64,000 nt of DNA. It comes from Methanosarcina sp. MSH10X1. GTDB lineage: Archaea; Halobacteriota; Methanosarcinia; Methanosarcinales; Methanosarcinaceae. Where the stretch lies: positions 1 to 64,000 of the forward strand of contig NZ_SCHL01000006.1 of NCBI RefSeq assembly GCF_004099695.1, read 5' to 3'. The position numbers were made by a program, and so were the translations under genes. The notes beneath the pieces are model-generated. The model saw only the letters and a list, made by a program, of their open reading frames with translations, did no database searches and was not told the DNA's origin. Below, piece by piece: positions 32,684-57,653 of this stretch (the first letter of the stretch is position 1; the number at the start of each line of letters is the position of its first letter).

Positions 32684-32754
32684 GCCAAGGTGGCGGAGCG
32701 GTCACGCAATCGCCAGCAGAGCGATTCAGTCCTGGTTCAAATCCGGACCTTGGC
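32684..32754 (+). tRNA. tRNA-Cys (GCA), atypical: A33 and irregular T stem
   Basis: The 71-nt cloverleaf has acceptor GCCAAGG/CCTTGGC, D stem GCG/CGC, anticodon stem ATCGC/GCGAT and T loop TTCAAAT. The anticodon loop CAGCAGA gives anticodon GCA with G37. The base after the acceptor is T, the U73 expected for tRNA-Cys; CCA is not encoded. Two oddities: position 33 is A instead of the near-universal U, and the T stem pairs only as TCC(T)GG/CCGGA, with a bulged T (or a C-A mismatch plus a G-U). It may still be used, but could be a decaying copy. A second, regular tRNA-Cys lies at 51655-51725. Confidence 0.85.
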
Positions 32755-32841
32755 TTCTTATAATTTTTAAGAAATTCACCTTCCTTCAGAGTAACCTTTA
32801 ATTTTTTACTTTTTCAGTTTATTGTACAACTGTTTTATCTT

Positions 32842-47031: not shown

Positions 47032-47727
47032 TTAAACCATTTTCTCAAACTTATCCAGCACCAGAAACATGAATTCTTTTGTCCCTGCCAGATATTCTCG
47101 CTTCCCGAGCATTTCCTGTGTTTTCTGTACAAACGGCCCTTCCACAATCCCTTCTCCGAACCGCTCGATCAGAGACTGAATTCTTTCTTCATTCACCTCG
47201 GGGTGGAATTGAAGCGCTACAACCCTGCCGTTATAAGTAAACCCCTGGTTCTTGCAGCCCTCGCTTTCAAAAAGGAGAACAGCCCCTGGCGGCAGGTCAA
47301 AAGTCCGAGAATGCCAGTGAAAAACCATAATCTCATCCGGCAGCCCTTCAAGAAATTCCGGCTTATTCTCGCCGCCGGATGCCCTTACAGGAAACCAGCC
47401 CATCTCAATGTAACGGTTCTCATAAATCCGCGCCCCAAGGATGTCAGCAAGCAGTTGTGCGCCAAGACAGATTCCAAGTATCGGTTTTCCTGCTTCAATT
47501 GCCTGCTTGATAAACACTTTCTCATCTCTCAGCCATGGGTTTTCTTCATAATCGTAGATTCCCATAGGACCGCCCATGATGATAAGCAGGTCAAAAGAGT
47601 CAGGAACCGGCGGGCTTTTAGGTTCGTAAAAACGGGTTGACTCAAGCCTGTGGTCTTTAATTTTTGCATATTCTTCGATGGTGCCGAGGGTATTTATGGC
47701 TGAGTGCTGGAGAACCTGGATTTTCAT
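47032..47727 (-). CDS. Class I glutamine amidotransferase-like protein
   Basis: A 231-residue GATase1 domain of the stand-alone GMP-synthase-like group. The nucleophile elbow is GKPILGICLGAQLLA, with Cys87. The catalytic His-x-Glu is in VALQFHPEVNEE (about 170-180). The oxyanion region MGGPMGIYDY is present. Stand-alone members hydrolyse gamma-glutamyl bonds or serve unknown synthetases; no partner synthetase lies nearby. It ends three bases from the mprF-like gene on the other strand. Confidence 0.88.
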   Translation of the reverse strand: MKIQVLQHSAINTLGTIEEYAKIKDHRLESTRFYEPKSPPVPDSFDLLIIMGGPMGIYDYEENPWLRDEKVFIKQAIEAGKPILGICLGAQLLADILGARIYENRYIEMGWFPVRASGGENKPEFLEGLPDEIMVFHWHSRTFDLPPGAVLLFESEGCKNQGFTYNGRVVALQFHPEVNEERIQSLIERFGEGIVEGPFVQKTQEMLGKREYLAGTKEFMFLVLDKFEKMV

Positions 47728-48003
47728 GAGAGATAAGTTTGCAGTTTCGAAATTAAATATTTACATTTAAATTCCTCAGGTTCTAGATTTACTGCCAGAC
47801 AAAGAAGTATTTCCTGTGTTTTCGTTATTACAGTGTATCCGATCTTTACTCTTTTCTTCTAACCGAAGGCGACAATTCCACCAGCAGGATACGGAACAAA
47901 ATTTGTTTAATTTCTAACGCTGGTGGAGAGTTCCTATCCTCTTAGAAAAATCGGCAGGGTACCTGGCTGAAATAAACTTATATTTCAGGATGAAGTTATA
48001 AAG

Positions 48004-48303
48004 ATGATCATGATGAGATTTGATACTTTAATACGCAGTTTTACAATAGCCTGTTTAATATCACTTATAACAGTAATTATAGAGGCAGCTTATTACGGAT
48101 TGCAACCCGAGAACGCCTATTCCGTCAGCAACGCAGGATATTCTGTTACCAGTCCTTTTGTGAATAATCTCTCAGACTTAACCAGCCCTGTAAACCTGAT
48201 ACTACTCGCTATAATATTCTTCTCGGCTTTTGTGGTAGCTTTAAGCAAGATATCCAAAAATGAGAAATTATCTAAAAGAAACCCCATGAGAAGATATGGA
48301 TAA
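48004..48303 (+). CDS. Small membrane protein, unknown
   Basis: A 99-residue frame with two hydrophobic segments (TIACLISLITVIIEAAYYGL, about 13-32, and LILLAIIFFSAFVVAL, about 66-81), a polar loop, and a basic C-terminus (KISKNEKLSKRNPMRRYG). An AGGATGA element lies about nine bases before the ATG. The topology and composition support a real gene, but no family is recognised. Confidence 0.55.
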   Translation: MIMMRFDTLIRSFTIACLISLITVIIEAAYYGLQPENAYSVSNAGYSVTSPFVNNLSDLTSPVNLILLAIIFFSAFVVALSKISKNEKLSKRNPMRRYG

Positions 48304-48670
48304 TCCGGCAAGGACAGGGTCTGGGAACGCAGGCGAATCCGTCTTGCAAAATCGGATCTGAAAATCACTTTTTTCCGATTCTGGTTTTAAGTAATTATTA
48401 AAAAATCTTCTAAATGTAAAATAACTGATATTTTTATCTCATTTTTACAGATCCCTGAAGATGCATCTTTATTCAATTGAAGATAGCCGGTTCAAGTTGG
48501 ATATTTGTGCGGAACGATAACAACAGAGCTGTTATTGAGGACGCTGTGGGACAGTAAATGATTAAAAAATAGCTTATCCTCAATTAAAGCGAACTTAAAA
48601 AAAGTATAGGGCTGAAGAGAAGAACTTTGCCATCAGCCCGGTTTCTGAAAGTTAAAGGAATTTTCCCGAA
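48304..48670. other. Spacer without visible features
   Basis: This 367-bp AT-rich gap between the small membrane protein and metX (convergent) shows no gene and no strong terminator hairpin. Confidence 0.5.
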
Positions 48671-50218
48671 TTAACCGAACCTTCCGATAAGTGCACTTAT
48701 GCTTTCACTCGTAACCATACCTATGATCCGGCTTTCTGAATCAATGACCGGAAGCGCGGAAATTGAGTAATCTTCCATTATTGAGGAGGCAGCCTCGATT
48801 TTTTCGCCCGAATATACGTATTTCACGTCACGGGTAATTATCTCTTCCAGTTCCGTGATTTTGCAGGCGACAGCTTTTGTAATATCCCAGGAGGTAACTA
48901 TGCCTTCAAGCTTTCCGTCTTCGGATACGACAGGCAGATGGTTTACTTTCTTTTTTACCATGAGCATTGAGGCGTTTTCCAGGGTTTCATCCCTTGAAAC
49001 GGAATAGAAATTAGGATTCATGATATCGCTTACAAGGATCTGTGAGAGAAAGCCCCTTATAAGGTAGTTGAGCTGCCCTTCCTCAAGCAGGAAAGCATCA
49101 TGCCCGTACTGGGATCGGATTTCCTCGTATTTGGCATCAACTCCATTTGCAGTAAGCGCAGAAACAATTTCCTGGGACTGGTAGGGAGGATAGAGCCAGT
49201 CTGAGGTTATGGAAATCACGAGATATTTCGCCGTAACTCCGGAAAGCCCTTCTATAAGAGATCCGTTCTTTGAAAGATCGAAGAAATCCACGGCTTTTGT
49301 AATATAAAGATAGGAATTGGCATCAAAGCGCTTTGTAAAGGTATCCCCCTGGTAATTCAGGTAGCTCTCCACCTGAAAATTCGAGAAGCTGTCAGGAAAG
49401 GGGTCTGAAGAAATATCTGACAGATCCGGGCCTGCTTCGTCCTGCTGGGCTCTTCCGAACTTCTTCTGCATAGAGGCATCACTCAGGTATGTGATATGGC
49501 CTATCATTCGGGCAAGTGCAAGGCCCTGTGCAGGGATTTCCTTTCCGTAGTAATTTCCCCCGTTCCATTTCGGGTCATCGGTTATGGCTTTTCGGCCTAT
49601 TGCCCCGAATGCGATCTGCTGAGGGGTTGTGGATGCGGTTGTTGCTATTGCAATTGCCTTTTTTACCATTTCAGGGTAGCTGACTGTCCACTGGAGCACC
49701 TGCATTCCGCCCATCGAGCCACCTGCAACTGCAAAAAGCTGTTTTACCCCAAGCTGCTCGACAAGCTTTTTCTGGGCATTTACCATGTCTGCTATGGTGA
49801 GTACGGGAAAGGAAATTCCATAAGGCTTTCCGGTTTCAGGGTTAACGGAAGAAGGGCCTGTAGAGCCCTTGCAGCCCCCGATTATGTTTGAACAGATAAT
49901 GCAGTATCTTTCCGTATCAAAAGCCTTATTCGGGCCGATTACAATATTCCACCAGCCAGGCTTTCTATCGCCTGCATGAAACCCGGCAGCATGGGCGTCT
50001 CCGGTAAGGGCGTGACAGACCAGGATAACGTTGCTTTTATCGGCATTCATTTTCCCATACATCTCGTACTCTATCCTTACAGGAGAGAGGGTCTTTCCAT
50101 TCTCGAACCTGAAAATTCCGGGAATTTCGTAGTTCATTGAACGAACTATCCCCAGGTTCTGGCCTTTTTTTCCCGAAAAAAAGTTTTTAAAAGAAGCAAT
50201 CCGGGTAGAGATCTCCAT
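48671..50218 (-). CDS. metX: Homoserine O-acetyltransferase with C-terminal CBS pair
   Basis: MetX acetylates homoserine with acetyl-CoA, the activation step for direct sulfhydrylation to homocysteine. The alpha/beta-hydrolase domain (about 25-375) has the nucleophile elbow AGGSMGGMQVLQW and the late catalytic His in SQYGHDAFLLEE. Two CBS motifs follow (about 390-515), with VNHLPVVSEDGKLEGIVTSW and ISALPVIDSESRIIGMVTSE. CBS pairs bind adenosyl compounds, so feedback by S-adenosylmethionine or ATP is plausible. It starts two bases after the metY stop, so metY-metX form an operon. Confidence 0.93.
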   Translation of the reverse strand: MEISTRIASFKNFFSGKKGQNLGIVRSMNYEIPGIFRFENGKTLSPVRIEYEMYGKMNADKSNVILVCHALTGDAHAAGFHAGDRKPGWWNIVIGPNKAFDTERYCIICSNIIGGCKGSTGPSSVNPETGKPYGISFPVLTIADMVNAQKKLVEQLGVKQLFAVAGGSMGGMQVLQWTVSYPEMVKKAIAIATTASTTPQQIAFGAIGRKAITDDPKWNGGNYYGKEIPAQGLALARMIGHITYLSDASMQKKFGRAQQDEAGPDLSDISSDPFPDSFSNFQVESYLNYQGDTFTKRFDANSYLYITKAVDFFDLSKNGSLIEGLSGVTAKYLVISITSDWLYPPYQSQEIVSALTANGVDAKYEEIRSQYGHDAFLLEEGQLNYLIRGFLSQILVSDIMNPNFYSVSRDETLENASMLMVKKKVNHLPVVSEDGKLEGIVTSWDITKAVACKITELEEIITRDVKYVYSGEKIEAASSIMEDYSISALPVIDSESRIIGMVTSESISALIGRFG

Positions 50219-50220
50219 GC

Positions 50221-51612
<1,392 letters not shown>

Positions 51613-51654
51613 TCAGGCGTCTCTGGATTCGACTTCGTTTCAACCTTTTTGAAA

Positions 51655-51725
51655 GTCAGGAGTGAGAATCGAACTCACATAATTCCGGGTTGCAGCCGGA
51701 AGCATAACCACTCTGCCATCCTGAC
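51655..51725 (-). tRNA. tRNA-Cys (GCA), regular, A37
   Basis: The 71-nt cloverleaf is fully paired: acceptor GTCAGGA/TCCTGAC, D stem GCA/TGC, anticodon stem TCCGG/CCGGA with loop CTGCAAC (U33, anticodon GCA, A37), and T stem GTGAG/CTCAC with TTCGATT. The next base is T (U73), as expected for Cys, and CCA is not encoded. It differs strongly from the tRNA-Cys at 32684, notably A37 against G37. It lies in the same orientation as metY, just downstream of a tandem TCACAATTGTGA-type operator. Confidence 0.97.
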
Positions 51726-51748
51726 GATGAGTATCTTTTTGTATATGT

Positions 51749-51784
51749 TCACAATTGTGATTACAACATCAAAATCGTGATGTT
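51749..51784 (-). promoter_or_regulatory. Tandem palindromic operator at the tRNA-Cys/metY promoter
   Basis: A perfect TCACAATTGTGA lies at 51749-51760. A weaker relative, ATCAAAATCGTGAT (51768-51781), which matches 10 of 14 positions of TTCACAATTGTGAA, has its centre 20 bp away. A TATA-like TTTTATATAT (minus strand, about 51786-51795) lies just upstream, placing the sites near the predicted transcription start, where a bound protein would block initiation. Confidence 0.75.
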
Positions 51785-51928
51785 AATATATAAAATTATC
51801 TGTAACAAAAAAGAAAAAGGGAAAACACGAATTTGAGAATTGAAAGAAACCTTTCGTGAAGAAAGGTTTCTTGAAAAAGGAAAGTAGAATTGAAATGCAG
51901 GGAAAAAACCATAACCCGTTCCTTCAGT

Positions 51929-52843
51929 TCAATTTCCGTTAATCTCAAGCATCCGGTCCAGAGTTTTTCTGGCTTTAACCCTTATCTGCTCCGGAACATG
52001 GATTTCAAATTCGTTATTTCGGAGGCTGTTCAGGACAGCTTCGAGGGTGATTTTCTTCATGTTATAACAGAAAGCCTTCCCGGATGCAGGATAGAATTTT
52101 TTATCAGGGTATTTTCTTTTCAGGCTTCGAATAATTTCTTTCTCGGTTCCGATGATGAACTCCGTGGAACCTGAACTTCCCGCCTCTTTTATAATTCCTG
52201 ACGTACTGAGAATCCGGTCCGCAAAGCCCAGGACTTCAGGCCTGCATTCGGGATGCGCGAGAAATTCGGCATCAGGATGCAGTTCTTTCAATTCCTGTAT
52301 ATCTTCGCCGCTGATGTTCTCGTGAACATGGCAAAATCCGGGCCAGAGATGGATCTTCTTATCGGTATGAAGAGATACAAAAGCTCCCAGGTTTTTATCC
52401 GGAATAAAAAGAATCTCCCGGCTTTCAATTGAGTTCACCACGTTTATCGCATTTGCCGATGTGCAGCAGATATCGGATTCGGCTTTTACGGCTGCCGAGC
52501 TGTTTACATAGCACACGACTGCAGCATCGGGATGTTTCTTTTTTGCATCCCTCAGAGACTCCGCAGTGACCATATCCGCCATAGGGCAGCCTGCATCGGG
52601 TACGGGTAATAGCACTGTTTTTTCAGGGGAAATTATCGATGCCGATTCTGCCATAAAGTGAACGCCTGCAAAAACTATGACATCGGCTTTTGAATTAACT
52701 GCGGCTTTGCATAGGGAAAGGGAGTCTCCTACAAAGTCCGCAACTTCCTGAACTTCGCTCCTGGTATAAAAGTGGGAAAGGATTACGGCATTTCTTTCGG
52801 CTTTAAGTTTCTTTATTTCTTCTATAATTAACTGGTTTTCCAT
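51929..52843 (-). CDS. nadA: Quinolinate synthase A
   Basis: NadA condenses iminoaspartate with dihydroxyacetone phosphate to quinolinate for NAD synthesis, using a [4Fe-4S] cluster bound by three cysteines. The 304-residue protein shows VILSHFYTRSEVQEVADFVG, AVVCYVNSSAAVKA (first Cys), the second Cys in the WPGFCHVHE/HPECRPEVLGFAD region, and GSSGSTEFIIGTE; a C-terminal KAFCYNMKKITLEAVL supplies the third. It lies downstream of iscU and iscS on the same strand, a natural pairing because the cluster must be built by them. No nadB-like or nadC gene is in the window. Confidence 0.94.
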   Translation of the reverse strand: MENQLIIEEIKKLKAERNAVILSHFYTRSEVQEVADFVGDSLSLCKAAVNSKADVIVFAGVHFMAESASIISPEKTVLLPVPDAGCPMADMVTAESLRDAKKKHPDAAVVCYVNSSAAVKAESDICCTSANAINVVNSIESREILFIPDKNLGAFVSLHTDKKIHLWPGFCHVHENISGEDIQELKELHPDAEFLAHPECRPEVLGFADRILSTSGIIKEAGSSGSTEFIIGTEKEIIRSLKRKYPDKKFYPASGKAFCYNMKKITLEAVLNSLRNNEFEIHVPEQIRVKARKTLDRMLEINGN

Positions 52844-52932: not shown

Positions 52933-53328
52933 TTATTCATCCTCTGTCCACGGTTCAAGCCCTTTTCTTCTGAGATAATCATTAATTGCCTCATGGATTG
53001 CCTCTTCAGCAAGCATTGAACAGTGCATTTTTATCGGGGGAAGACCGTCAAGTGCTTCTGTAACGGCTTTGTTTGAAAGCTTCCAGGCTTCTTCCAGAGT
53101 TTTTCCCTTAATAAGTTCGGTTGCCATACTGCTTGATGCGATTGCGGCTCCGCATCCGAAAGTCTGGAACTTGACATCCGCAATCCGGTTATCCTCAACT
53201 TTAAGGTAAATTTTCATTATATCTCCGCATTTTGCGTTTCCGACCTCTCCTACGCCGTCACTGTTCTTAATACTGCCCAGATTTCTCGGGTTCGAAAAAT
53301 GATCCATTACTTTAGGGCTGTACTCCAT
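52933..53328 (-). CDS. iscU: Fe-S cluster scaffold IscU
   Basis: IscU assembles [2Fe-2S] and [4Fe-4S] clusters from IscS-derived sulfur. The three ligand cysteines are visible in GNAKCGD, TFGCGAA and KMHCSMLAEEA; the aspartate after the first is conserved. I set the start at ATG 53328 (MEYSPKVMDHFSNPRNLG, 131 residues), because GGAGG lies seven bases upstream; a longer frame adds nine residues without support. It lies about 120 bp downstream of iscS and upstream of nadA, probably in one transcript controlled by the palindromic operator before iscS. Confidence 0.95.
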   Translation of the reverse strand: MEYSPKVMDHFSNPRNLGSIKNSDGVGEVGNAKCGDIMKIYLKVEDNRIADVKFQTFGCGAAIASSSMATELIKGKTLEEAWKLSNKAVTEALDGLPPIKMHCSMLAEEAIHEAINDYLRRKGLEPWTEDE

Positions 53329-53449
53329 AAACTGTCCTCCAATGCTATTTTTCAATTCAATTTAATTCTTTCAATTATCGGATTTTCCAGGGATATTGAA
53401 ACTTCTTAAAACGAGCTAAGCTCTTTTTTGAATCGCAAACTACTGCCTC

Positions 53450-54634
53450 TTAAGTAGTCCTGTACTCCTCTGGGGTCAGTGGGGACATGTTTCGGAGCTT
53501 CTGCACGATCTCAGGCACTACCTCAAGTACCCTGTCCACATCTTTTTCGGAATTCATTCTTCCGAGGCTGAGCCTGAGTGAACCGTGAATGATCTCGTGC
53601 GGGACTCCGCAGGCTGTAAGCACATGCGAGGGTTCGAGAGAAGTTGAATTACATGCACTTCCGGTCGAGGCGAAAATTCCTTTTGCATTCAGTAGCAGCA
53701 GCAGCGATTCGCCCTCTATATACTCCAACGTGATATTTACGTTGTTTGCAAGCCTCTGTTTGGGATGCCCGTTAAGATGGGTTTTAGGGATTCTCAGGAG
53801 ACCTTTGATAAGGCGCTCTCTCAGTTCCAGAAGGGTTCTATTCAATTCCCCAATTTCGGCTGTTGCAAGCTCTATAGCTTTTCCAAGGCCCACAATGCCA
53901 GGGACATTCTCGGTGCCTGCCCTGCGCCTGCCTTCCTGAGCTCCTCCGTGCAGGAGAGGCTCTATTTTTACACCTTTTCGTACGTAGAGGGCTCCGCAAC
54001 CTTTTGGGCCTTCAAACTTGTGCCCTGAAAGGGAGAGAAGGTCAATATTCATTTTTTTGACATCGATTGGGACATGACCTATCGCCTGTACTGCATCCGT
54101 ATGGAAATATATCCGGTTCTCTTTCGCAATTTTTCCAATTTCCTCTACAGGCTGGATCGTCCCGATTTCGTTGTTCGCAAGCATTATGGAAATAAGGATG
54201 GTATCATCCCGAATAGCTTTCCGGACTTCTTCAGGAGACACCATTCCGTATTTATCTACAGGCAGGTATGTTACCTCAAAACCCTGCCCTTCCAGCCAGG
54301 CACAGGTATGCAGGACTGCGTGATGTTCGATAGAAGAGGTGATTATGTGTTTTCCTTTGTTCCGGTTTGCAAAGGCTATCCCCTTAATTGCCCAGTTATC
54401 GGATTCCGTGCCTCCGGATGTGAAATAGATTTCATTCTCTTCAGCCCCGAGTGCATAGGCAACCTTTCTCCTTGCCTCGTCTATTGAGTGTTTTGAGATT
54501 TTTCCTATTTCATAAATTGAGGAAGGGTTTCCGAAATTTCCAGTCATAAACGGGAGCATTTCTTCGACAACTTCCTTTCTTAAAGGAGTTGTAGCCGAGT
54601 TATCCATGTAAATAGCCCTGTCATTAACGGTCAC
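53450..54634 (-). CDS. iscS: Cysteine desulfurase IscS/NifS
   Basis: IscS removes sulfur from cysteine as a protein persulfide for Fe-S cluster and thio-cofactor synthesis. The 394-residue PLP enzyme begins AIYMDNSATTPLRKEVVEEM. It has the SSIEHHAVLHT motif, the PLP lysine in SLSGHKFEGPKGCG and the catalytic cysteine in ASTGSACNSTSLEPSHVL. The start is GTG 54634 with AGGTG five bases upstream. Two palindromic operators lie 10 and 29 bp before it. Many methanogens lack this enzyme, so its presence with cysK-cysE is a bacterial-style cysteine economy. Confidence 0.95.
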   Translation of the reverse strand: MTVNDRAIYMDNSATTPLRKEVVEEMLPFMTGNFGNPSSIYEIGKISKHSIDEARRKVAYALGAEENEIYFTSGGTESDNWAIKGIAFANRNKGKHIITSSIEHHAVLHTCAWLEGQGFEVTYLPVDKYGMVSPEEVRKAIRDDTILISIMLANNEIGTIQPVEEIGKIAKENRIYFHTDAVQAIGHVPIDVKKMNIDLLSLSGHKFEGPKGCGALYVRKGVKIEPLLHGGAQEGRRRAGTENVPGIVGLGKAIELATAEIGELNRTLLELRERLIKGLLRIPKTHLNGHPKQRLANNVNITLEYIEGESLLLLLNAKGIFASTGSACNSTSLEPSHVLTACGVPHEIIHGSLRLSLGRMNSEKDVDRVLEVVPEIVQKLRNMSPLTPEEYRTT

Positions 54635-54643
54635 ATATTCACC

Positions 54644-54675
54644 TTCACAATTGTGAATAATGATAACAATTGTGA
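54644..54675 (-). promoter_or_regulatory. Tandem palindromic operator at the iscS promoter
   Basis: TTCACAATTGTGAA (54644-54657) is a perfect 14-bp palindrome. TAACAATTGTGA (54664-54675) is a second copy with one degenerate base pair, its centre 19 bp away. A TATA-like ACTTAAATAG lies at about 54678-54687 on the minus strand, so both sites fall between the TATA element and the GTG start, a repressor geometry. Confidence 0.8.
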
Positions 54676-54868: not shown

Positions 54869-54884
54869 GTTCTCAATTGTAAAC
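54869..54884 (+). promoter_or_regulatory. Palindromic operator variant at the regulator promoter
   Basis: GTTCTCAATTGTAAAC differs from the perfect form GTTCACAATTGTGAAC at two positions. It lies about 25 bp after an AT-rich TATA-like element (54838-54851), over the predicted transcription start and 21 bp before the ATG. The weaker match fits autoregulation. Confidence 0.6.
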
Positions 54885-54904: not shown

Positions 54905-55309
54905 ATGGAAACTCCGTGTCAGAAGATTGTGTGGGATCTGGTCCCCGCAATAAGGGCCAGTCTTGCAATCGAACTCGTAAAAAAAGGACAGTCACAGGCA
55001 ACATCGGCAAAGCTGCTTGGGATTGCCCCGTCGGCAGTTTCCCAGTATATTTCGGGAAAAAGAGGATACAGAATCGAGTTTCAGGGTGAGACGAAGGAAT
55101 TGATCGAAAAACTTGCTCAGGACCTGATCGAAAATAAGGTTTCAGACTTTGTCGTAAGGATCTGTGAGATCTGCGTAAGCGCCCGGGGAATTGAAAAGAA
55201 ATGCAATAGCGGCTGCGGTTCGGAAGAGCAGGCCGATAATAAAAAAGTAGACGAATCTGAGAGCAAAGCGGAACGGATAGCGGCAGACAAAAAAGAATCT
55301 GAAGCTTGA
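54905..55309 (+). CDS. HTH transcriptional regulator with four-cysteine cluster
   Basis: The 134-residue protein belongs to the archaeal COG2522-like XRE/HTH family. After METPCQKIVWDLVPAIRASL comes the helix-turn-helix SQATSAKLLGIAPSAVSQYI (about 30-49) with SGKRG. The middle part ends in CEICVSARGIEKKC...GC, that is C-x2-C-x9-C-x3-C (about 87-105), suited to an Fe-S cluster or metal. A charged tail follows. I prefer ATG 54905 over GTG 54893 and ATG 54896, because METPC is the family start and GTGAT precedes it. It lies between iscS and cysK, and its promoter shares the palindrome with theirs. I infer that it is the regulator that binds these sites. Confidence 0.82.
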   Translation: METPCQKIVWDLVPAIRASLAIELVKKGQSQATSAKLLGIAPSAVSQYISGKRGYRIEFQGETKELIEKLAQDLIENKVSDFVVRICEICVSARGIEKKCNSGCGSEEQADNKKVDESESKAERIAADKKESEA

Positions 55310-55434: not shown

Positions 55435-55454
55435 AAATTCACAATTGTGAATTT
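55435..55454 (+). promoter_or_regulatory. 20-bp perfect palindromic operator at the cysK promoter
   Basis: AAATTCACAATTGTGAATTT is a perfect 20-bp palindrome, the strongest copy of the motif. A TATA-like CTATATTTAA (about 55417-55426) lies 25 bp upstream of its centre, so it covers the predicted start. A leader of about 220 nt then precedes cysK; a second TATA-like run (55588-55598) could give an independent start. Confidence 0.8.
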
Positions 55455-55676: not shown

Positions 55677-56603
55677 ATGGGGCGAATATTTTCCGACATA
55701 ACCTGGACAATTGGCAATACGCCTCTTGTCAGGCTAAACCACATGACAGAGGGCTTGCATGCGGATGTGCTGGCTAAAATCGAATCTTTTAACCCTATGG
55801 GCAGTGTAAAAGACAGAATCGGGCTGGCAATGGTCGAGGAAGCCGAGCGTGAGGGAAAGATCAAAAAGGGCACGACCATTATTGAAGCAACCAGCGGCAA
55901 CACCGGTATTGCACTTGCAGGCGTCTGTGCTGCCCGCGGCTATAAGCTTATACTGGTTATGCCTGAGACAATGACCGTAGAACGGAGAAAACTGCTCAAA
56001 GCTCTGGGAGCAGAACTCGTCCTGACCCCTGGGGCAGAAGGCATGAAAGGGGCAGTCAATAAAGCCGCACAGATGGCAGGTGACGACCCTGCGCTTTACT
56101 TCATACCCCAGCAATTCCAGAACCCTGCAAACCCGGAGATTCACAGGCGGACAACCGCTGAAGAAATCTGGAGAGATACGGACGGTAAAGCCGATATCGT
56201 TGTAGCGGGCGTGGGGACAGGCGGAACTATCACAGGCATTGCCAGCGCAATCAAAAAACGGAAACCTGCTTTTAAGGCTATTGCAGTCGAACCTGCCGAG
56301 TCTCCCGTGCTAAGCGGCGGAAGCCCCGGCCCGCACAGGATTCAGGGGATCGGCGCAGGTTTTGTTCCTGATGTACTCCGGCTTGAACTGGTCGATGAGA
56401 TTATCAAAGTAACAGGAGAGGAGGCTGCTGCCACAGCCCGGCGCCTGGCAAAGGAAGAAGGCATCCTTGCAGGAATATCTTCAGGCGCTGCCATTTACGC
56501 TGCGTTGCAGGTTGCATCCAGAGAAGAGATGAGCGGAAAGACAATTGTTGTGATTTTGCCGGATACTGGAGAGCGTTATCTGAGCACGGACCTGTTTGAC
56601 TGA
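55677..56603 (+). CDS. cysK: Cysteine synthase (O-acetylserine sulfhydrylase)
   Basis: This PLP enzyme makes cysteine from O-acetylserine and sulfide. The 308-residue protein starts [20 protein letters not shown] and has the PLP lysine in [12 protein letters not shown], the substrate loop [13 protein letters not shown], the phosphate loop [12 protein letters not shown], and the late [12 protein letters not shown] and [11 protein letters not shown] motifs of type A synthases. It is 105 bp upstream of cysE, whose product binds it in the bacterial cysteine synthase complex. GGAGA precedes the ATG. Such a pathway is absent from many methanogens, which make cysteine on tRNA, and is probably acquired from bacteria. 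Confidence 0.95.
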
Positions 56604-56708
56604 TTTATCGGCAAGTGTATGAATGAATACAGGCAGTTGCCTGGCGCTTGACTTATCCATCTACAATGGCTGACCGATCGATTGAGAATTAACATGGGAA
56701 GATTGCTA

Positions 56709-57653
56709 ATGGGAATAAGGGAAGATATAAGGACCGTTTTTAAAAAAGACCCTGCAGCTAGGTCTACGCTTGAGGTAATCTGCTGTTATCCGGGCCTGCA
56801 TGCCATCTGGATACATCGGGTATCTCATTCCCTCTGGAACAAACACTTTTATTTTCTTGCCCGTTTACTCTCTCATGTCTCCAGAGCGTTAACAGGTATT
56901 GAAATCCATCCCGGAGCAAAGCTTGGAAGGCGAGTTTTTATAGACCACGGGTCCGGGGTTGTAATCGGAGAAACCGCTGAAGTCGGGGACGATGTCCTGA
57001 TATATATGGGGGTTGTGCTGGGCGGAACAGCCCTTGAAAGGACAAAGCGTCATCCTACTATTGAAAACGATGTGGTTATCGGTTCAGGTGCCGCCGTACT
57101 CGGCCCGATTACAGTTGGAAGAGGAGCTAAAATAGGCGCTGGTTCGGTCGTGATCCGGCCAGTCCCCGCCGGAGCTACGGTCGTGGGAGTGCCTGCGAGA
57201 ATTGCGGAGCCGCGTCCCCCTGTCTCTACAGGGCAACTGGACCATGATAAGCTGCCTGATCCCGGACTTATTGTGATAAGCCAGGTACTTGACCGGCTGA
57301 GCAGGTTAGAAGACCAGTTCAAGGCACATGAAGAGTCAATTTCCGGACAGGGGAAAACTATGGAGGAAGCAGCACTTAAGGACGAGCAAATTTATTCCCT
57401 GCTAAAAGACGTGATCGACCCCGGAGTAGGGATGGATATCGTAAAACTGGGACTGGTCAAGGAAGTAATAGTGGACGGGCCAAACGTCGATGTAAACCTT
57501 GTATTGACAACGAGCTCCTGCCCTATGATCGAGTACTTTAAGGAACAGGTCCGGCGAAAAGTCCTGAGTGCAGGCGGGATAGAAAAAGTTAATGTTAATA
57601 TCCTTGACGAGCCCTGGAGCTGGGATAGGCACAAAAAACAGGCAGTCCGTTAA
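56709..57653 (+). CDS. cysE: Serine O-acetyltransferase fused to a MIP18/DUF59 domain
   Basis: The N-terminal part (about 1-190) is an EpsC-type serine acetyltransferase: [34 protein letters not shown], then the left-handed beta-helix with [20 protein letters not shown] and [11 protein letters not shown]. After a linker a second domain (about 230-314) reads [20 protein letters not shown] and [20 protein letters not shown]. This is the MIP18/PaaD/SufT (DUF59) fold, with its conserved cysteine; such domains act in Fe-S cluster delivery. I start at ATG 56709 (MGIREDI); ATG 56694 and a start at 56682 are alternatives. It is downstream of cysK in one operon. The fusion suggests that acetylserine synthesis is tied to Fe-S status. 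Confidence 0.93.

Follow-up and report, generated by a model that had tools for sequence, protein, structure and literature searches.

The window, the whole stretch of 64,000 nucleotides analysed here, carries an A37 tRNA-Cys gene that lies behind an operator shared with sulfur genes and at the head of metY-metX. We conclude that tRNA-Cys, metY and metX probably form one repressible unit of a sulfur regulon, reduced from an operator-tRNA-Cys-SepCysS2-metY-metX operon. Sequence comparison points to this arrangement through the layout of the locus and how well it is conserved, through the SepCysS2 genes linked to it in relatives, and through the co-occurrence of regulator and operator. The preliminary description had placed the tRNA gene under a dedicated operator. 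Comparison among genomes bears this out, with a conserved operator common to the sulfur genes, and control of the tRNA-Cys gene by the sulfur-cluster operator appears well supported. Genes for tRNA are seldom regarded as members of metabolic regulons; a tRNA-Cys behind its own switch, at the head of a sulfur operon, suggests that its supply falls within cysteine metabolism, beyond a housekeeping part in translation.

The tRNA-Cys genes of the window and its genome

ARAGORN found two tRNA-Cys genes in the window (Table 1). The number two had also been implied by the preliminary description; tRNA search and anticodon reading of the whole genome (3.56 Mb, 99.95% complete) gave four, comprising three G37 genes without an operator, one of them with A33, and a single A37 gene with an operator. 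The A37 gene has a cloverleaf with a GCA anticodon, U73 and the anticodon loop CUGCAAC, and its stems are paired at 7/7 (acceptor), 5/5 (anticodon) and 5/5 (T-stem) positions. It had been called the regular tRNA-Cys, which holds only against the A33 copy in the window, since a tandem pair of G37 genes on contig C53 (loop CUGCAGA) is more ordinary. In the A33 copy, A33 replaces the near-universal U33, and this copy is absent from the RF00005 matches of the whole-genome search. Close relatives of it are present in several genomes of the genus, and its sequence is identical to that of the M. mazei tRNACys which, according to the accessible part of the source, is charged by M. mazei CysRS (PMC4329189).

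Operators, promoter and sulfur cluster

The perfect palindrome TCACAATTGTGA lies exactly 23 bp from the 5' end of the tRNA, and both this distance and the A37/U73 identity agree with the preliminary description. Most relatives hold an exact operator copy at the position of TCACGATTTTGA, which is degraded in the window itself, and the TATA box TTTATATA ends 6 bp ahead of this upstream operator. The usual archaeal TATA-to-start distance would put the transcription start near 51765, in the stretch that separates the operator copies, so that the exact copy would lie just inside the transcript. Operators placed between the TATA box and tRNA-Cys are fit for blocking initiation, and from this position we infer repression rather than activation.

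Matches to TTCACAATTGTGA with at most two mismatches number 14 in the window against 2.23 expected, and none of 100 shuffles scored as high. The exact 12-mer occurs at three sites in the genome, all within the sulfur cluster (tRNA-metYX, iscSU-nadA and cysK-cysE). From base composition, 0.33 exact sites would be expected per genome. When one mismatch was allowed, 11 sites were found genome-wide versus 7 for the reversed pattern, so the looser sites elsewhere in the genome are mostly due to chance. Summed over 30 genomes of the genus, exact sites total 149 versus 15 for the reversed control. Among the 49 distinct tRNA genes of the window genome that were examined, one of which had just 2 bp of sequence upstream, the A37 tRNA-Cys gene alone has a site with at most one mismatch within 100 bp upstream; the three G37 tRNA-Cys genes have no operator upstream. 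The operators before iscS and cysK are placed, by eye, similarly to those of the main locus.

The metY start at 51564 leaves a gap of 89 bp to the tRNA, matching the earlier statement that metY-metX follow about 90 bp downstream on the same strand; the supposed lack of a terminator in this gap also held, the longest T run being 2. The metX start lies immediately past the metY stop. A separate metY promoter (AAATATAA, about 20 bp ahead of the start codon) was considered and rejected, since a ribosome-binding-like site follows it and the transcription start would land at or past the ATG. On the other side of the tRNA promoter, the inverted repeat at 51844-51872 may possibly mark the end of an iscSU-nadA transcript. 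The PF01883 domain on CysE ties serine acetylation to Fe-S assembly in a single chain.

Table 1. Features of the sulfur cluster and of the two tRNA-Cys genes in the window.
Feature	Position	Strand	Evidence
tRNA-Cys, A33 G37, no operator	32684..32755	+	ARAGORN
metX, homoserine O-acetyltransferase, two C-terminal CBS domains	48671..50218	-	NF001209 509 bits, cut-off 331; PF00571
metY, O-acetylhomoserine sulfhydrylase	50221..51564	-	TIGR01326 643 bits, cut-off 495
tRNA-metY spacer, 89 bp, no T run over 2, GGAGGT ribosome-binding-like site	51565..51653	-	sequence
tRNA-Cys(gca), U33 A37 U73	51654..51725	-	ARAGORN; Rfam RF00005 60.6 bits; all stems paired
Downstream operator copy TCACAATTGTGA, a 12-bp perfect palindrome	51749..51760	.	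site search; conserved in 14-locus genus alignment
Upstream operator copy TCACGATTTTGA, degraded, with 2 mismatches	51769..51780	.	site search, genus alignment
TATA box TTTATATA	51787..51794	-	promoter scoring, genus alignment
12-bp inverted repeat, between nadA and tRNA promoter	51844..51872	.	read in sequence
nadA, quinolinate synthase	51929..52843	-	NF006878 438 bits
iscU/nifU scaffold	52933..53355	-	TIGR03419 229 bits
iscS/nifS cysteine desulfurase	53450..54634	-	TIGR03402 621 bits
Exact operator in front of iscS	54645..54656	.	site search
Second operator in front of iscS, 1 mismatch	54664..54675	.	site search
Operator-like TCTCAATTGTAA, in front of HTH regulator gene	54871..54882	.	site search
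HTH regulator, 134 aa, proposed operator binder	54905..55309	+	orthologue, alignment, model; Pfam HTH_3 below cut-off only
Exact operator in front of cysK-cysE	55439..55450	.	site search
cysK, cysteine synthase	55677..56603	+	TIGR01139 474 bits
cysE, serine acetyltransferase, C-terminal FeS_assembly_P domain	56682..57653	+	TIGR01172 245 bits; PF01883

Conservation within Methanosarcina

The tRNA was matched in 25 of the 30 genus genomes, and 22 have an ARAGORN-positive copy at the main locus. All 22 of these copies have an operator with at most one mismatch within 100 bp upstream, and 18 of the 22 have at least two sites at up to two mismatches. In an alignment of 14 of the 22 loci, the TATA box and the two operators stand out as conserved blocks amid variable spacers. 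A crude TATA score of at least 6.5 was reached by 26 of 42 distinct main-locus promoters versus 5% of random 30-mers; the TATA result is partial, as promoters of the second sulfur islands described below score low and have a TTTAAATA-like box farther away. The gene that follows tRNA-Cys is metY in 17 genomes, SepCysS2 in three and metX in two (G007 and G026). The spacer to this gene measures 30-242 bp, and its T runs do not exceed 4 in 21 of the 22 genomes. Since these spacers are short and T-poor, read-through from the tRNA into the next gene is likely, and co-transcription of tRNA-Cys with metY can be considered likely from sequence.

No operator accompanies the three further A37 tRNA-Cys copies (one each in G004, G027 and G012), and in strain KYL-1 (L054) an A37 and a G37 tRNA-Cys stand in tandem behind the same operators. 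Four genomes (G009, G015, G023 and G024) have no operator, no regulator orthologue and no A37 tRNA; the regulon appears to have been lost there as a whole. Further exact operators lie in front of other genes in relatives (L042:14052, L051:18158, L053:17312, L181:10107 and 14810, L194:6778 and 6807), where the regulon is larger than in the window genome.

The state of the tRNA itself bears on a rather unlikely alternative, in which the operators serve metY-metX, while tRNA-Cys remains in the leader as a remnant of the operon that once included SepCysS2 and adds little to the cell. Degraded copies of the main-locus tRNA were seen in G010, G016 and G017 (both copies in the latter) and a mispaired one in G008, with operators and metY/metX staying in several of these genomes; the main-locus tRNA-Cys can therefore be dispensable. 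The operators-tRNA-metX order of G007 and G026 and the three G37 tRNA-Cys genes that remain in the window genome are also in keeping with a leftover. Pairing argues against it: 98.9% of the tRNA stem cells are paired, one pair switches between G-C and A-U and is thus compensated, and the acceptor, anticodon and T stems are fully paired in 19 of 22 genomes, the exceptions being G008 (acceptor 5/7), G025 (acceptor 6/7) and G029 (T-stem 4/5).

SepCysS2 linkage in relatives

Three Methanosarcina loci (L046, L053 and L054) have the order operators-tRNA-Cys-SepCysS2-metY-metX, with a gap of 34-35 bp after the tRNA. Their SepCysS2 proteins pass the SepCysS cut-off and measure 455-459 aa, versus 386-390 aa for standard SepCysS. 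Together with L055, which has operators-tRNA(G37)-SepCysS2 and is probably the same genome as L236, these loci place a SepCysS gene next to tRNA-Cys. The window genome encodes SepRS, CysRS and standard SepCysS. SepCysS2 is absent from the window and from its whole genome, and the neighbours of the window tRNA-Cys are the sulfur-metabolism genes metY and metX, not SepCysS.

The arrangement extends to other genera of the family. Exact or near-exact operators precede tRNA-Cys(G37)-SepCysS2-metY in L245, L246, L249, L251, L252, L257 and L259; in L258 the operators lie farther upstream, and L244 has tRNA-SepCysS2-metY in a locus that ends at the contig end. SepCysS2 with operators was seen in L237, L239-L243 and L250, where the tRNA was not found, and SepCysS2-metY stands without tRNA or operator in L260 and L261 of another genus. 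In L266, of that same genus, a tRNA-Cys(G37) lies behind two near-operators, beside the regulator and without SepCysS2, which speaks against the tRNA being a mere leftover. The loci in which SepCysS2 and tRNA-Cys occur apart also count against the reduced-operon model.

The SepCysS2 sequences of L054, L046 and L053 group with that of L236 as sister, with support of 100/100 for the four. The simplest reading of the sequences is that an ancestral unit lost SepCysS2 repeatedly, with gain as a conceivable alternative. Such loss would need several events, because in the tree the metY genes linked to SepCysS2 are interspersed with unlinked ones. From their N-terminal extension and editing-domain neighbour, the SepCysS2 proteins of relatives would fall in clade VII. 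That neighbour is a tRNA-Thr_ED (PF08915) protein encoded downstream of the SepCysS2 operon (L054:506-1054, L055:3139-3636), possibly a deacylase of mischarged or Cys-charged tRNA-Cys. Near the window tRNA, region 47701-48690 has just two ORFs, which encode 99 and 83 aa.

Second sulfur islands (L180, L182, L184, L185, L190, L191 and L192) carry tRNA-Cys genes, SepCysS2 and then metY2, with identities of 68-71% for SepCysS2 and 64-68% for metY2; L189 has tRNA-Cys then SepCysS2, and metY was not seen there. Several of the tRNA-Cys genes in these islands start 8-9 bp past an exact operator, and L180 (5327-9398) alone contains five such genes, of which four have an operator 8-9 bp upstream. That relatives carry additional tRNA-Cys genes with individual operators again argues against a leftover in the leader. 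A GNAT gene lies beside operator-linked tRNA-Cys in L180 (5650-6645), L184 (6177-7211), L190 (8423-9418) and L198 (1854-2618), an assignment made with Acetyltransf_6 (PF13480) for the L180 copy and by similar N-termini for the others. GNAT folds include aminoacyl-tRNA-dependent ligases, and it is conceivable that the GNAT protein is a user of Cys-tRNA.

HTH regulator and proposed mechanism

The HTH regulator shows no family above cut-off and only weak Pfam HTH matches below it. An IscR/Rrf2-type Fe-S regulator was considered and set aside, as no Rrf2 domain was detected among these sub-cut-off matches. The predicted model has five helices, with good confidence over approximately residues 11-90 and a loose tail, and the fold search returned no match at E of at most 0.001; no solved relative was found at E<0.1. 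In an alignment of 12 sequences (L212 left out), the recognition region APSAVSQY is nearly unchanged, Cys5, Cys87 and Cys90 are invariant and Cys100 is near-invariant. We presume that the protein belongs to COG2522, for which the literature searches found no paper.

Regulator and operator co-occur across genomes. Among the 30 genus genomes, the orthologue is missing in G009, G015, G020, G023 and G024 and the exact operator in G009, G015, G023 and G024, so that the regulator is absent from 4/4 operator-less genomes and present in 25/26 others (Fisher 1.8e-4, phylogeny ignored). The exception is G020, a 75% complete genome with operators and tRNA in which the regulator was not found. Across the order, the regulator occurs in 85 of 185 genomes, namely in 41 of 44 with SepCysS2 (rows of at least 58% identity) versus 44 of 141 others, phylogeny again being ignored. 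Homologues of 49-57% identity lie beside operators and SepCysS2 in other genera and are adjacent in L257, L258 and L259. These sequence data suggest that the HTH protein binds the operator. The copy TCTCAATTGTAA in front of its own gene may provide autoregulation, and the cysteines and target genes allow the guess that it senses Fe-S or thiols.

In the mechanism that we propose, the HTH protein would bind the paired palindromes, which separate the TATA box from the tRNA and span the transcription start, and would block initiation as long as the status of sulfur, cysteine or Fe-S is favourable. Its release would yield one transcript from near 51765, from which RNase P and tRNase Z would excise tRNA-Cys and leave the metY-metX message. 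From the older operon, tRNA-Cys would have been made along with the enzyme that turns tRNA-bound phosphoserine into cysteine; the window genome would then have lost SepCysS2 and kept the tRNA, which may still feed the pool used by SepRS/SepCysS and CysRS.

A bolder scheme, which we consider speculative and unlikely, gives tRNA-Cys the part of a carrier in metabolism: a repressor with four cysteines that senses sulfur or Fe-S would raise, on demand, a dedicated pool on which cysteine is made, and the window A37 gene would be a surviving carrier outside the supply for translation. In relatives, the multiplied tRNA-Cys genes with their own operators beside SepCysS2 would serve such a pool; the editing-domain protein could free the cysteine and the GNAT protein could pass it on.

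Position 37 and the choice of enzyme

The preliminary description took A37 as the mark of the CysRS substrate, so that the window tRNA would be a CysRS-specific isoacceptor tuned by cysteine supply. This is doubtful and we give it little credence. The gene is the sole A37 tRNA-Cys of its genome, and the accessible parts of two papers state that SepRS of some archaea uses m1G37 (PMC5424206, PMC8762117) and that a preference among isoacceptors is attributed to M. mazei (PMC8762117), all of which would suit a CysRS-specific species. A37 as a mark of CysRS use was nevertheless rejected as the leading reading, since A37 tRNAs adjoin SepCysS2 as well as metY, lying directly, 12-35 bp, upstream of the second SepCysS in L046, L053, L180, L182, L184, L185 and L190. 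Directly before the SepCysS2 of the second islands stands an A37 tRNA in L180, L182, L184, L185 and L190 and a G37 tRNA in L189, L191 and L192; with both bases in this place, position 37 does not sort tRNA-Cys by enzyme partner. The accessible text of the charging studies points the same way: SepRS from M. maripaludis charged tRNAs with either base, A37 or G37, in vitro (PMC5424206), m1G37 is reported as helpful to both SepRS and CysRS (PMC8762117), and CysRS charges G37 tRNA (PMC4329189). The tandem of A37 and G37 genes behind shared operators in L054 is likewise at odds with A37 as such a mark.

A role in cis, by which folding, cutting or charging of the leader tRNA-Cys would set metY-metX expression as a built-in cysteine gauge, is highly improbable. 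In its favour, the place between operator and first gene is fixed in 22/22 genomes; against it stand the range of spacer lengths, the persistence of degraded tRNA copies and an Rfam search of 51500-51930 with no family other than tRNA above its own cut-off.

Comparison with known systems

For some SepCysS genes, linkage to tRNA-Cys has been published before: as the accessible part of the paper has it, those of clade VII are linked to tRNA-Cys and a small number of genes of sulfur metabolism, and a gene for a tRNA-Thr editing domain is often present as well (Mukai et al., 2017; PMC5424206). The same arrangement, with PF08915, is found in L054 and L055, whereas the window is without SepCysS2. 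That part of the account mentions neither an operator pair nor this TATA arrangement nor an HTH regulator. The window cluster also has iscS-iscU homologues in common with the M. acetivorans IscS2/IscU2 locus, whose deletion, according to the accessible text, affected sulfur metabolism and persulfide level (PMC7585200); that text describes no operator, regulator or tRNA, and the word tRNA is absent from its main text.

In the accessible portion of the literature searched, from which subscription journals largely fall outside, we found no report of the operator, of the regulator or of a tRNA kept under the operator after loss of SepCysS2. The same operator stands in the same place before tRNA-Cys across the genus and in related genera, near enzymes that make cysteine on tRNA.

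Synthesis of cysteine on tRNA by SepRS/SepCysS alongside CysRS in Methanosarcina was reportedly described by Hauenstein and Perona in 2008. Both routes are present in the window genome; the published work, as cited by later papers, concerns charging, whereas the window tRNA gene appears to be controlled at transcription. A defined regulator, site and gene set raise the question, in a tractable methanogen, of whether cells with two routes shift tRNA supply with sulfur status. The bacterial T-box, which controls cysteine genes, likewise ties tRNA-Cys to cysteine genes. In the T-box, however, the tRNA is a trans ligand of the leader, whereas in the window it is a product of the operon.
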